NCBI RefSeq assembly: GCF_030994125.1
Contig: NZ_CP099917.1
Location: 3,580,001 to 3,644,000 of the forward strand
DNA from: Pseudoalteromonas xiamenensis
Lineage (GTDB): Bacteria > Pseudomonadota > Gammaproteobacteria > Enterobacterales > Alteromonadaceae
Length of the DNA stretch: 64,000 bases
Direction: 5' to 3'
Position 1 is the first letter of the stretch. Each line of letters begins with the position of its first letter. This document shows positions 4,087-8,645 of the stretch, in pieces. The translations under genes and the position numbers were made by a program. The notes under the pieces were generated by a model, which worked only from the letters and a program-made list of their open reading frames with translations, made no database searches and had not been told where the DNA came from.

Positions 4087-5103
4087 ATGAAAAAAGTAAC
4101 CATTAATAGCGTAGCAACCTATGCGGGTGTGTCTAAAAAGACGGTGTCTCGCGTATTGAATAATGAACCTAACGTAAGCCCTGCAACACGTGAAAAGGTG
4201 TTAAAGGTATTTAAGGAATTGGACTACACGCCCAATCCAATTGCGCGGGGTTTAGCGAGAAATCGTAGTTTCATTATCGGTTGTTTATATGACAATCCAA
4301 GTAAAAGTTACATCACACGAGTCCAAAGTGGTGCGCTTGAGGCTTGCCATAAATTTGGTTACAACCTTCTTATTCACCCGTGCGAACTTCGTGGTGAAGC
4401 ACTGATCGAAAACATTGAACAGCTGTTACAAACTTCGCGTTTGGATGGTTTAGTGCTCACCCCACCGTTTTCGGATTCGAAAGAGCTTGTTGCCTTTTTG
4501 AAGAAAAAAGGGCTGCCATATGCGCGCGTAGCTTCTGCTATTGAAGAAGATGATTCAATTAGCGTTCGTAGTAATGATGAACAGGGGGCGCTTGAGCTGA
4601 CTGAGCATTTAATTAAACTCGGGCACAAAGAAATCGCGTTTATTAAAGGTCACCCAGATCACTCTGCGACAGAACTTCGTTTTAGTGGTTACAAGAAAGC
4701 ACTAGCAAATCATGGTATTGCATTTGAACCTCGATTAGTTGCAGAAGGTAACTTTAGTTATCATTCAGGGGCTGACAGTGCGAAGACCATTTTGGACCTA
4801 AATCCACGTCCTACGGCTGTTTTTGCGTCAAATGATTACATGGCTGCTGCGGTATTAAAACTGGCAACACAACGTCAACTCAAAGTACCAGAAGCACTCT
4901 CCATTGCGGGATTTGATAACGCACCGATTGCGCGCCATATTTGGCCTGGTTTAACGACGATTGCTCAACCGGTAGAGGAAATGACGCGATTGGCGGTAGA
5001 GCATTTGATCCTATCGATTACCGAATCGCCGGATATGGTATTCCAAACTGTTCTTGAAGCTAAACTCATTTGCAGAGAGTCAACGGCTCCACTTGAGAAA
5101 TAA
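4087..5103 (+). CDS. LacI-family transcriptional regulator B
   Basis: A 338-residue LacI/GalR protein starting 9 bases after glk and presumably co-transcribed with it. The HTH contains AGVSKKTVSRVLNNEP (about residues 13-28), followed by the effector-binding core with IAGFDN near the C-terminus. It resembles LacI regulator C closely: both have the TVSRVxNNEP recognition helix, then GxxYDNP and LLIHPC or LVIHPC. The two are therefore probably duplicates that may read the same or related palindromes, with class B a candidate. The effector cannot be deduced. A strong terminator follows. Confidence 0.92.
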   Translation: MKKVTINSVATYAGVSKKTVSRVLNNEPNVSPATREKVLKVFKELDYTPNPIARGLARNRSFIIGCLYDNPSKSYITRVQSGALEACHKFGYNLLIHPCELRGEALIENIEQLLQTSRLDGLVLTPPFSDSKELVAFLKKKGLPYARVASAIEEDDSISVRSNDEQGALELTEHLIKLGHKEIAFIKGHPDHSATELRFSGYKKALANHGIAFEPRLVAEGNFSYHSGADSAKTILDLNPRPTAVFASNDYMAAAVLKLATQRQLKVPEALSIAGFDNAPIARHIWPGLTTIAQPVEEMTRLAVEHLILSITESPDMVFQTVLEAKLICRESTAPLEK

Positions 5104-5121: not shown

Positions 5122-5146
5122 AAAGGCACCTTCGGTGCCTTTTTTC
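5122..5146 (+). terminator. Intrinsic terminator of glk-lacI
   Basis: AAGGCACC / GGTGCCTT form an 8-bp stem with a TTC loop, followed by a T tract, 19 bases after the stop codon. Confidence 0.9.
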
Positions 5147-5345: not shown

Positions 5346-7586
5346 ATGTCTTTAGAGTCCATGAGCGCCGGTTCTCCCATCTATTTAGATGCAAATGCTA
5401 CGACACCTGTATTGCCGTCTATCGTTGAGGTTGTGACGCATGCCATGCAGGTCTGTTTCGGTAATCCTTCTAGTTCCCATATTACGGGAGTGCAAGCGAA
5501 ACACCTCATGGAACAAGCGAGGTTGCGAGCAAGAGAACTTGTTGGGGCTGGGCATGGTGATATTCTTTTTACTTCTGGCGCAACCGAAGGCATTCAGACT
5601 GCAATAGTTTCCGCGCTACTAAATGCGAAGAAAAATGTTACTCCGGAGTCGGTCTTGCTGTATGGGGCTACAGAACATAAGGCGGTACCTAACACATTAA
5701 AACATTGGAATCAGGTGCTGGGAATAAACGCACGAATTTTGTCCATTCCCGTTGATAGAAATGGCTTGCTTGATCTCGCATTTATCGAAGCACATGCCAA
5801 AGATGCGCTCATGATTTGTACTATGGCTGTAAATAATGAAACGGGTATTATTCAAGATGTGAATGCCATAGAAGCTGTAATTCGAAGCCAAAATACCGAA
5901 TGCGCTTGGATGGTCGATTGTGTTCAAGCGTTAGGTAAACGGAATCTAGTTTTAAGTGAAACAACCATTGATTACGCGCCATTCTCTGGGCATAAACTCT
6001 ATGCTCCAAAAGGAATTGGGATGTTATACATACGCCATAACGCACCGTATACGCCATTTATCGCCGGTGGTGGGCAAGAAAGCGGGATGCGTTCTGGCAC
6101 GGAAAATTTACCCGGTATAGCTAGTTTAAATGAGCTATGTCGCCTACTACTTGACGCTGAACAATCCCCCTTTCAATCACACGAGCAACTCGGACGTTAC
6201 CGTGACATGCTCAAAGAGGCGGTAGTTGACACCTTTGAACAAGTGTCTTTTCATCATGATTTTGCACTGTCAGTGCCGACCACGCTTAACTTCTCGGTTG
6301 ATAATTTAACCTCTAAAGAGGTTATTGATTTGTTTGATGCTGCGGGCATTCGCGTGAGTGGCGGATCTGCGTGCAGTTCAGGGTCAAACAGGAGTTTTGT
6401 GTTAGATGCCATGGGGCTATCTGATTGGCAGAGTGAAAATGCGATTCGCATGTCTTTTGGGCCGGCGGATAGCATGGAGCAAATAGAGGAAGCATGTAGA
6501 CGTATTCGCTCTTTAAAACCAATTCTCGCGCAAAATTGTTTAATTGTTTCAGATAGCCAATACCCTAGTCAGGAAGCATGCGCAATTGGAGTCACCCAAT
6601 TTCGTCATCAAGGAGCATGTTGTTGGCTGTATGTTGCTGCTAATCGAGAAGCCATTGTTATTGACCCAATTGTAGAACTTCTTCCTAGGCTTGAACGCCT
6701 GATACAAAAGCAACAATTGATTGTCAAAGCGGTGTTAGACACGCATAGCCACCAAGATAGGTCATCTGGTCACATGATACTAAGTGACATGCTTGGTTTT
6801 GATAGCTCACAGAGAGACGCATTGGGGTGGCCTCGAAACGTAGGTGAAATCAAGGTTGGTGATGCAACGTTAAAATCGGTAAAAACGCCGGGACACTCAA
6901 CGGACAGTGTGAGTTATTTGCTTTACCAGAATGAGCGAGTTGTGCTTTGCTTTTGTGGTGACTTGGTGTTACCGCATGGGTTGGGGGCGACACACAAAGA
7001 GGGTGGTGATGCCTTTTCAATGGCTAGCAGTTTGATGAATTTAGATACAGTTTTGAGTCCAGATACCGTGATGTGTTCAGCACACGATTACAAACAATGC
7101 TTTGCAATTACGTGGAAAGTGCAAAAAGGTCAGTTGCCTTTGTTGTTTGCGTTAACTTCCGGAGCGCTAAGTGTCGAAGATTTCGTCGCTGATAAGGCCG
7201 CACAGAGTGTTCAAGAAGCGGAACCTGAGCAATTGGATCTGTGTGGTTTTATCAATGTAGTACAAAACGTTGCGTTCGAAGAGTTGAATGCGACAAATGC
7301 AGTCGAGTGGATGCACGCGAACAACGCGACGCTAATTGATACCAGAGAAGCCTACGAGCACAGTGCTCAATGCACCCCTTGTTCAGTGATCCAAGAATCT
7401 GAAGAAGTATTAAATATTCCCCTCAGTCGTATGGCGGATGCGATTTTACGTGGTGTTATTGCTCCAGATAACGCGTATGTACTGCTTTGCAGAACAGGTA
7501 ATCGTTCGCGACAAGCTGCAACGACTTTACGTAATTTGGGGTTCACCAAGGTGTGTAATTTGAAAGGTGGTGTGGCGCTAAGTTAG
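5346..7586 (+). CDS. Three-domain sulfur enzyme: cysteine desulfurase + ETHE1-like persulfide dioxygenase + rhodanese
   Basis: A single 746-residue frame joining three sulfur-handling modules. Residues about 10-395 are a NifS/IscS-type PLP cysteine desulfurase, with the ATEHKAV segment near 109-113, PLP Lys in SGHK (K217) and the mobile-loop catalytic Cys in GSACSSGS (C343). Residues about 405-600 are a metallo-beta-lactamase fold resembling persulfide dioxygenases: THSHQDR (466-472), TPGHS (H517), CGD (D539) and SAHDY (H580). Residues about 645-746 are a rhodanese domain with the active loop CRTGNRS (C715). By family knowledge the parts would make a cysteine persulfide, oxidise a persulfide to sulfite, and transfer sulfane sulfur. 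The whole suggests channelling of persulfide within one cytoplasmic protein; this is inference. The start at 5346 is preceded by AAGG; a second Met lies at residue 6. No signal peptide is seen. Confidence 0.85.
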   Translation: MSLESMSAGSPIYLDANATTPVLPSIVEVVTHAMQVCFGNPSSSHITGVQAKHLMEQARLRARELVGAGHGDILFTSGATEGIQTAIVSALLNAKKNVTPESVLLYGATEHKAVPNTLKHWNQVLGINARILSIPVDRNGLLDLAFIEAHAKDALMICTMAVNNETGIIQDVNAIEAVIRSQNTECAWMVDCVQALGKRNLVLSETTIDYAPFSGHKLYAPKGIGMLYIRHNAPYTPFIAGGGQESGMRSGTENLPGIASLNELCRLLLDAEQSPFQSHEQLGRYRDMLKEAVVDTFEQVSFHHDFALSVPTTLNFSVDNLTSKEVIDLFDAAGIRVSGGSACSSGSNRSFVLDAMGLSDWQSENAIRMSFGPADSMEQIEEACRRIRSLKPILAQNCLIVSDSQYPSQEACAIGVTQFRHQGACCWLYVAANREAIVIDPIVELLPRLERLIQKQQLIVKAVLDTHSHQDRSSGHMILSDMLGFDSSQRDALGWPRNVGEIKVGDATLKSVKTPGHSTDSVSYLLYQNERVVLCFCGDLVLPHGLGATHKEGGDAFSMASSLMNLDTVLSPDTVMCSAHDYKQCFAITWKVQKGQLPLLFALTSGALSVEDFVADKAAQSVQEAEPEQLDLCGFINVVQNVAFEELNATNAVEWMHANNATLIDTREAYEHSAQCTPCSVIQESEEVLNIPLSRMADAILRGVIAPDNAYVLLCRTGNRSRQAATTLRNLGFTKVCNLKGGVALS

Positions 7587-7610: not shown

Positions 7611-8645
7611 TTATTCGCTTTTGTTTGAGCTTTCTCGGACGACCATAGACGGGGTAAACACTGTCATGATTTCTTTGTCAAGATTCCGAGGGCCACGTAT
7701 TTTACTAAATAATAAGCGTGCAGCGTGCTGTGAAATGACGTCGTTTTCCTGATGCGCTGTAGTTAACTTCGGCCAAGTTTGTTTCGAGAAGGGAGAGTCT
7801 TCGAAACCAGTAATTGATAACTGTGCTGGAATAGCGACATTCATCAATCTTGCTGCGAACAACGCGCCTGCGGCAATTTCATCGTTACCGCCCATAATCG
7901 CAGAAATATTGAATTTATTGCCATCTTCTAGAAACGCCTTAGCACCTTGTACACCGGACTCAAAGGAGTAGTTGCCACGGTAGACGAGTTTTTCATCGTA
8001 TACTAAGCGGTTGTCTTTGAGTGCATCTTTATATCCACTCAAGCGCTCGGCTGTTGATTTGTGTTCTTCGTCACCACACAAAAATGCAATGTTAGAGTGG
8101 CCGTGGCGTATCAAATGCTCTGTTATTTCATAAGAGGCGGCATAGTCGTTAACGTAAATACAGTTTCTTGATTCATTTTCGTCTTGAGAAGGGCGTCCAG
8201 AAAGAATGCGAACAAATTCAACATCGAGTGACTCGAGCAAGTCGATTATATCTTGTTGCTCAGACAAAGGAGGCGTTAGGACAAGTCCAGCTAAGCGAGA
8301 ACGCTTTATCATCGTTTGGAATTCTTCAACCATGTTCTCATCTGAGTAGCTACATGGATGAATAACCAATTCATAACCTTCTCTTCTACATCGTGACAAT
8401 ACGCCATTTTGCATATCAATAACGTAGTAAGCGTTGGGGTTATCATATACAAGCCCGACGGTAAACGATGAAGTACCTGCAAGGTTTCGTGCGGCTAAAT
8501 TAGGCTGATAGTTAAGCTCTTTTACTGCGCTCATCACGATGTCATAGGTTTTTTTGCGAACCGAAGGCTCATTGTTTATAACACGCGATACGGTCTTCAT
8601 TGACACGCCGGCGAGTTTCGCTACGTCGTTAATAGTGACTTTCAT
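7611..8645 (-). CDS. LacI-family transcriptional regulator C
   Basis: A 344-residue LacI/GalR regulator, convergent to the sulfur fusion gene and divergent from pgi. The HTH reads AGVSMKTVSRVINNEP (about residues 12-27); the ligand-binding domain ends with ITGFEDSPF and LTTAHQ. It is the closest relative in the window of LacI regulator B. Its promoter region, read on the minus strand, has a consensus TTGACA overlapping the class A palindrome at 8768-8781, which suggests autoregulation. The class B palindrome nearer pgi may be another target. The effector is unknown, probably a sugar or sugar phosphate given the neighbours. Confidence 0.9.
   Translation of the reverse strand: MKVTINDVAKLAGVSMKTVSRVINNEPSVRKKTYDIVMSAVKELNYQPNLAARNLAGTSSFTVGLVYDNPNAYYVIDMQNGVLSRCRREGYELVIHPCSYSDENMVEEFQTMIKRSRLAGLVLTPPLSEQQDIIDLLESLDVEFVRILSGRPSQDENESRNCIYVNDYAASYEITEHLIRHGHSNIAFLCGDEEHKSTAERLSGYKDALKDNRLVYDEKLVYRGNYSFESGVQGAKAFLEDGNKFNISAIMGGNDEIAAGALFAARLMNVAIPAQLSITGFEDSPFSKQTWPKLTTAHQENDVISQHAARLLFSKIRGPRNLDKEIMTVFTPSMVVRESSNKSE

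Follow-up and report, generated by a model that had tools for sequence, protein, structure and literature searches.

Desulfurase, dioxygenase and rhodanese fusions

Cells must shift highly reactive persulfide sulfur without leakage, and fusions that join a rhodanese to either a cysteine desulfurase (CD-Rhd) or a persulfide dioxygenase (PDO) are already known. In the CD-Rhd of Pseudorhodoferax sp. Leaf274 (WP_056898193.1; Selles et al. 2022), cysteine sulfur is taken on the desulfurase Cys and is proposed to pass to the rhodanese Cys, mutation of which lowered desulfurase efficiency with glutathione roughly tenfold and made transfer to a test protein much slower (PMC8931425). The PDO-rhodanese fusions (PRF) are represented by BpPRF of Burkholderia (Paraburkholderia) phytofirmans (PDB 5ve3/5ve4/5ve5), which lacks a desulfurase domain, and a reversed Rho-PDO fusion is described for cable bacteria in PMC13047784. 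Here we describe a stretch of 64,000 nucleotides from Pseudoalteromonas xiamenensis (contig NZ_CP099917.1, positions 3,580,001 to 3,644,000; hereafter the window), in which one open reading frame (ORF) encodes a cysteine desulfurase domain, a metallo-β-lactamase (MBL) domain of the persulfide dioxygenase type and a rhodanese domain in a single chain. This three-part combination is the new element with respect to the literature searched: it was not found by full-text searches covering titles, abstract openings and passages of PMC8931425, PMC10135228, PMC9774590 and PMC13047784, with subscription papers mostly outside their range.

A three-domain fusion gene

The ORF and its domains are as follows.

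5346..7586, + strand: fusion ORF desulfurase - MBL/PDO-like - rhodanese, ATG to stop, 746 amino acids (AA)
5379..6503, + strand: group I (IscS/NifS-like) cysteine desulfurase domain, residues 12-386, with H111, D191, the pyridoxal phosphate (PLP) lysine K217 (5994-5996) and the catalytic cysteine C343 (6372-6374)
6588..7145, + strand: ETHE1-type MBL (persulfide dioxygenase-like) domain, residues 415-600
7281..7580, + strand: rhodanese domain, residues 646-745, with the active loop C715-R-T-G-N-R (C715 at 7488-7490)

The original prediction, made by reading the sequence, had placed three catalytic signatures within this one frame, and K217, C343 and C715 were all found as it had given them, with H467, H517 and D539 as the predicted iron ligands. 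The domain search that it proposed returned clear Pfam matches to Aminotran_5 (residues 12-381, 1.7e-56) and Rhodanese (residues 652-743, 2.9e-10) and a weak match to Lactamase_B (3e-5). No ORF of 90 AA or more overlaps 5346-7586, and the whole 746-AA chain shares 97% identity with a P. xiamenensis protein. For a join of separate genes by assembly or annotation, against which the prediction had warned, no support was found, though two genomes of the genus (G704 and G738) carry the gene in two frames; with matches to the fusion in 108/108 genomes of the genus, 16 of them with a shortened middle, and 234 full-length sequences from many sources, we consider such an artefact ruled out for practical purposes and the frame a true single gene. 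In this common marine genus, all genomes searched carry a gene that combines the making of persulfide, a domain of the dioxygenase type and a sulfurtransferase in a single chain. In a sample of the order the fusion was present in 32/295 genomes and 10/99 genera (E<=1e-120), and in a sample of the class, which holds few members of the same order, in 1/369 genomes, this one (E<=1e-100). A search of the same 369 genomes with the desulfurase domain also matched only this genome at E<=1e-62, a cut-off that was too strict. The architecture occurs as well in proteins named Rheinheimera, Arsukibacterium, Alkalimonas and Alishewanella and in one Shewanella locus.

Group I desulfurases are marked by a PLP Lys, a substrate-site His, a PLP-binding Asp and a catalytic Cys in a mobile loop, and rhodaneses by a catalytic Cys within a six-residue loop with Arg. 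The window protein has all four of the former (K217, H111, D191 and C343) and belongs to group I in the broad sense, and its C715 loop is that of a single-domain rhodanese. For conservation, we used 234 full-length fusion sequences, the window's included (240 minus 6 outside 700-810 AA), and desulfurase H111, D191, K217 and C343 and rhodanese C715, R716, G718, R720 and S721 were invariant in all 234. The NCBIfam equivalog cut-offs for NifS and IscS proper were missed (277.8 vs 530.75 and 224.8 vs 643.2, respectively).

Whole-model Foldseek and VIA lists were dominated by the desulfurase domain, and the C-terminal half was hence folded separately. This MBL-rhodanese half, an MBL domain followed by one rhodanese domain with its catalytic Cys as in PRF, was most like PDO-rhodanese fusions, and the protein as a whole thus resembles a PRF to which an IscS/NifS-type desulfurase has been added. 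CstB of Staphylococcus aureus also has PDO and rhodanese in one chain but is without a desulfurase; it has a further rhodanese module, and PDB 3r2u, which we take to be CstB, was more distant from the window protein (5.3e-5). The group I desulfurases IscS and NifS share the fold and catalytic residues of the fusion, which, however, does not lie in an isc or nif locus. Like the Pseudorhodoferax CD-Rhd, the window protein has a desulfurase and then a single rhodanese in one chain, both with their catalytic Cys, as that class is defined in PMC8931425; unlike that protein, given there as about 54 kDa with two named domains, it has the MBL domain (415-600) in between and departs in this respect from the two-domain form, which relatives with a shrunken middle approach.

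The middle domain

The following positions bear on the activity of the MBL domain.

6744..6746, 6894-6896 and 6960-6962, + strand: predicted iron ligands H467, H517 and D539, from alignment to BpPRF and ETHE1 and from conservation
6759..6761, + strand: R472 at the third His of HxHxDH, a position held in the 93 PDO-type relatives by Phe (48) or His (45)
6987..6995, + strand: A548 and H550, replacing the Arg that binds glutathione and the Asp paired with it (R163/D165 in human ETHE1)

The predicted fold and the nearest sequence family of this domain are those of an ETHE1-type PDO. Its iron triad is complete, the same residues being present in all 93 PDO-type relatives used for comparison (P0267-P0360 of 120 listed, less P0285), and H469, D471 and H580 are also retained, as is Y582, which matches a glutathione-binding Tyr (Y197 in ETHE1) at a position where the relatives have mainly Tyr (45) or Met (47). 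The THxHxDH motif, whose third His may be Phe or Tyr in type III enzymes, reads THSHQDR in the window, and Arg occupies the 472 position in 106/234 fusion sequences. A548 stands in the place of R163 of human ETHE1, R139 of AcPDO and R142 of BpPRF, and H550 in that of the Asp partner; Arg and Asp were each found at these positions in 93/93 PDO-type relatives, and in the fusion family in 125/234 and 121/234, respectively. The glutathione-pocket residues R142 and K216 of BpPRF, with roles as given in PMC6060420, align to Ala and Glu of the window protein. According to the same paper, the Arg is conserved across all three PDO types, and mutants of the Arg and of its Asp partner had 0.4% and 1.5% activity (PMC6060420). 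Because mutants at these positions were nearly inactive in the PDO studied, oxidation of glutathione persulfide by the window protein, with its A548 and H550, should be weak. The dioxygenase signature originally proposed thus stands for the iron ligands and fails at the HxHxDH motif and the glutathione-binding Arg.

Across the 234 fusion sequences, H467 was conserved in 233 and H517, D539 and H580 in 226 each; Asp was present at position 471 in 135 and His at 472 in 99. Since 471 and 472, which would help to bind a second metal, are variable while the triad and H580 are kept, the pattern is that of a mononuclear-iron PDO and not of a dinuclear hydrolase.

A natural series of middle domains

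Among 134 family ORFs from the fetched loci, a set without L052 and L101 (genome G078), 108 were distinct after removal of 26 duplicates, and these were scored for MBL motifs. The canonical set (iron triad, DH and GR) was found in 49/108, and 5/108 kept the triad and Arg with DH gone. Both DH and Arg were gone and the triad kept in 31/108, including the window, and one sequence was truncated. The remaining 22/108 had lost the iron ligands, and comprised 6 full-length sequences of the P. rubra group, 12 shrunken sequences (chains of 665-687 AA) and 4 that were smaller still (615 AA). All 22 kept the catalytic residues of the desulfurase and the rhodanese and, judged by these residues, oxidation is dispensable in the family. 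The middle module is therefore found canonical, altered, ligand-less and nearly deleted among relatives with both ends constant, and this series makes testable the channelling of sulfur between modules and the action of a persulfide dioxygenase on a protein-bound persulfide. The P. rubra group fusions (L017, L018, L021, L022, L135 and L136), with a full-length and still conserved MBL domain without iron ligands, represent a natural pseudo-dioxygenase.

On a quick IQ-TREE phylogeny of the desulfurase domain (83 rows with SH-aLRT supports; L078 and 24 near-identical rows omitted), the iron-site losses need two changes, and the upstream gene order of the 615-AA group (L110, L112) is that of the iron-intact L133 and L134, the other loss groups having perM upstream. 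Together these favour two independent losses, a single loss not being rejected by the approximately unbiased test (p 0.134). The window-type rows did not form one clade: 17 grouped together, and the window and L055 were sister to the rubra-plus-shrunken clade (SH-aLRT 93, not starred). Members of the second Pseudoalteromonas clade often carry the gene on the smaller contig (0.85-1.24 Mb) of two-contig genomes (G734:C2, G703:C2, G744:C2, G699:C2), and their sequences group with copies of families f6, taken as Shewanella, and f16 (SH-aLRT 88); this placement and grouping hint at transfer between lineages.

The median ratio of nonsynonymous to synonymous substitution rates (dN/dS) for window-type sequences was 0.073 in the MBL domain, 0.070 in the rhodanese and 0.035 in the desulfurase (39 pairs, excluding the window and L055, for which dS was saturated). 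For the window-L055 pair, dN was 0.333, 0.337 and 0.162 in the same order, and identity between the window and P. xiamenensis proteins was 95.6%, 99.0% and 97.1%. By these measures, window-type sequences have an MBL domain that is not in decay; the remnant MBL of the larger shrunken clade had a dN/dS of 0.456 (5 pairs).

Proposed mechanism and alternatives

We propose, with a probability of about 60%, that a desulfurase-rhodanese relay is the shared core of this family, combined with an inserted PDO unit whose oxidation is weak or redirected in the window lineage. The relay is placed at the core because the constant parts of the family match the two domains of the Pseudorhodoferax CD-Rhd. A non-housekeeping cysteine desulfurase would form the persulfide C343-SSH, which would be passed within the chain to C715 of the rhodanese, and C715 would hand the sulfane sulfur to a thiol or other acceptor. 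Where the signature is canonical, as it is among others in the members from Shewanella and from the second Pseudoalteromonas clade, glutathione persulfide is probably oxidised to sulfite by the middle domain, and cysteine would yield alanine and either sulfite or, with the rhodanese, thiosulfate. In the window lineage, with the iron site kept and the glutathione-persulfide pocket altered, oxidation is predicted to be weak, aimed at a protein-bound or other persulfide, or gone. The making of a persulfide and its passage to the rhodanese in one chain, as first predicted, is well supported by the conserved modules, order and iron triad and by the CD-Rhd precedent (PMC8931425). The predicted oxidation to sulfite is likely in relatives with a canonical pocket, in keeping with their exporter neighbours, and doubtful in the window protein given A548/H550, the near-inactive PDO mutants and the 22/108 sequences without ligands.

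Several observations weigh against this proposal. The whole-chain AlphaFold model had a predicted template modelling score of 0.65, and no path between C343, the iron and C715 could be derived from it. The ligand-less rubra-type MBL had a dN/dS of 0.062 (4 pairs), below the 0.157 of the canonical group (19 pairs), which means that constraint does not track catalysis in the fusion family. Compensation of MBL loss by a stand-alone PDO was considered and is not supported, since such a gene was found in 0/12 and 0/9 genomes of two loss groups and in 4/4 of the third (E<=1e-40; the 9 rubra-like genomes were assigned by match identity and frame length, with 2/9 read (L135, L136), plus 4 named relatives). 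Finally, among 40 wide loci outside the chromosome-I group (37 with the DH motif and 3 without), no recognised exporter stood beside the gene in 32, the Pfam scan having covered 30 neighbour proteins.

The full scheme of the original prediction, a self-contained cysteine detoxification in which persulfide made by the chain from cysteine is oxidised to sulfite by a functional PDO and the rhodanese serves to form thiosulfate, would account for the retained triad, H469, D471, H580 and Y582, for an MBL domain that is not decaying and for the sulfite-exporter candidates adjoining the gene at some related loci. We nevertheless regard it as unlikely, given that the Arg548/Asp550 equivalents, individually critical in the homologous enzyme (PMC6060420), are gone, that another PDO is encoded elsewhere in the genome beside TauE and rhodanese genes, and that the sister clade of the window lineage has lost the iron site. 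The loss of the pocket residues, and the rubra-like relatives with their conserved but ligand-less MBL, would instead fit a pseudoenzyme retained between the two outer domains for structural spacing or assembly. Such a role is conceivable, if on the whole doubtful: the window, L055 and the 17-row clade keep the triad, and H580 is present in 30/30 rows, which would be needless in a mere spacer; since having the triad defines the window-type group, however, the argument holds only in so far as those clades contain no triad-less rows.

A role as biosynthetic sulfur donor (for thio-tRNA, molybdopterin or thiamine) rather than in detoxification appears improbable. It would suit the presence of the fusion throughout the genus with its desulfurase and rhodanese residues kept, and the rhodanese does score weakly, far under cut-offs, with MoeB- and ThiI-type models; yet most sampled genomes of the order are without the fusion though presumably they make the same cofactors, the only linked cofactor gene recognised was one of lipoyl-ligase type beside L096, and the TusA-like gene that neighbours the fusion in 32 loci is also next to perM in this genome, with the fusion elsewhere. 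For that reason TusA-perM, which precedes the fusion upstream in those loci, was also rejected as a functional partner. More speculative, and rather improbable, is a re-tooled dioxygenase that has lost the pocket and kept the iron and would oxidise or sense persulfide on the chain's own rhodanese or desulfurase Cys, sister lineages having dropped oxidation and kept the bare relay. If true, the protein would take sulfur from cysteine to sulfite intramolecularly, without setting free any small persulfide, and the family would grade naturally from three working modules down to two.

Genomic context

Two features flank the fusion gene.

5122..5142, + strand: terminator-like stem-loop (9 pairs and a T run; consensus match only) between lacI, which ends at 5103, and the fusion
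7611..8645, - strand: LacI-type regulator convergent to the fusion, followed by genes read as pgi, zwf and pgl

Such terminator-like sites numbered 5 in the region, against a mean of 2.4 (sd 1.5) in shuffles. With a stem after one lacI and the next lacI convergent, the fusion looks like its own transcription unit, and an operon with the sugar genes is further disfavoured by the different settings of the fusion in other genomes. The original prediction had remarked on a locus among LacI and sugar genes rather than isc or suf genes, and this sugar setting looks like a mere chromosomal position; the order fusion-lacI-pgi-zwf-pgl is common to many Pseudoalteromonas. Three LacI-type regulators lie within 7 kb (1762-2781, 4087-5103 and 7611-8645) around apparent glucokinase, pgi, zwf and pgl genes, these sugar-gene names being assigned by reading and not by family search.

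Elsewhere in the genome are genes read as iscR-iscS-iscU-iscA-hscB and csdA-csdE, which would make the fusion the third desulfurase of the genome. A stand-alone PDO stands beside TauE and rhodanese genes in two identical copies; of these genes, only TauE was named by family search (PF01925). These belong to a repeat of at least 9,478 bp at 100% identity (G000:C1, about 1,022,000-1,032,000 and 1,147,000-1,157,000; L142 and L143), some 124.5 kb apart, which reflects recent duplication or else an effect of the assembly. By plain count, off the tree, a stand-alone PDO was present in 2/27 canonical-type genomes (one partial, and 4/27 not read) vs 34/56 others, the latter obtained as the remainder by subtraction.

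Exporter candidates were near the fusion in 8 of the 40 loci outside the chromosome-I group. TauE/SafE genes are divergent next to it in L082, L114, L117, L118 and L120; L099 has a barely related divergent TauE (30% over 80 residues); and L084, with the matching L085, has SLAC1-family genes, a TetR-like gene (below the Pfam cut-off) and a presumed cysK of the PALP family. TauE matches numbered 4 to 9 per genome in 10 genomes tested, and a TauE neighbour by chance alone is unlikely. In L019, L031, L034, L038, L040, L043, L045 and L046 (Shewanella or family code f6; Pfam-checked in L019 only), the fusion has a YhcH/YjgK/YiaL (DUF386) gene nearby, with a small phosphatase-like gene between the two in L019 and L046.
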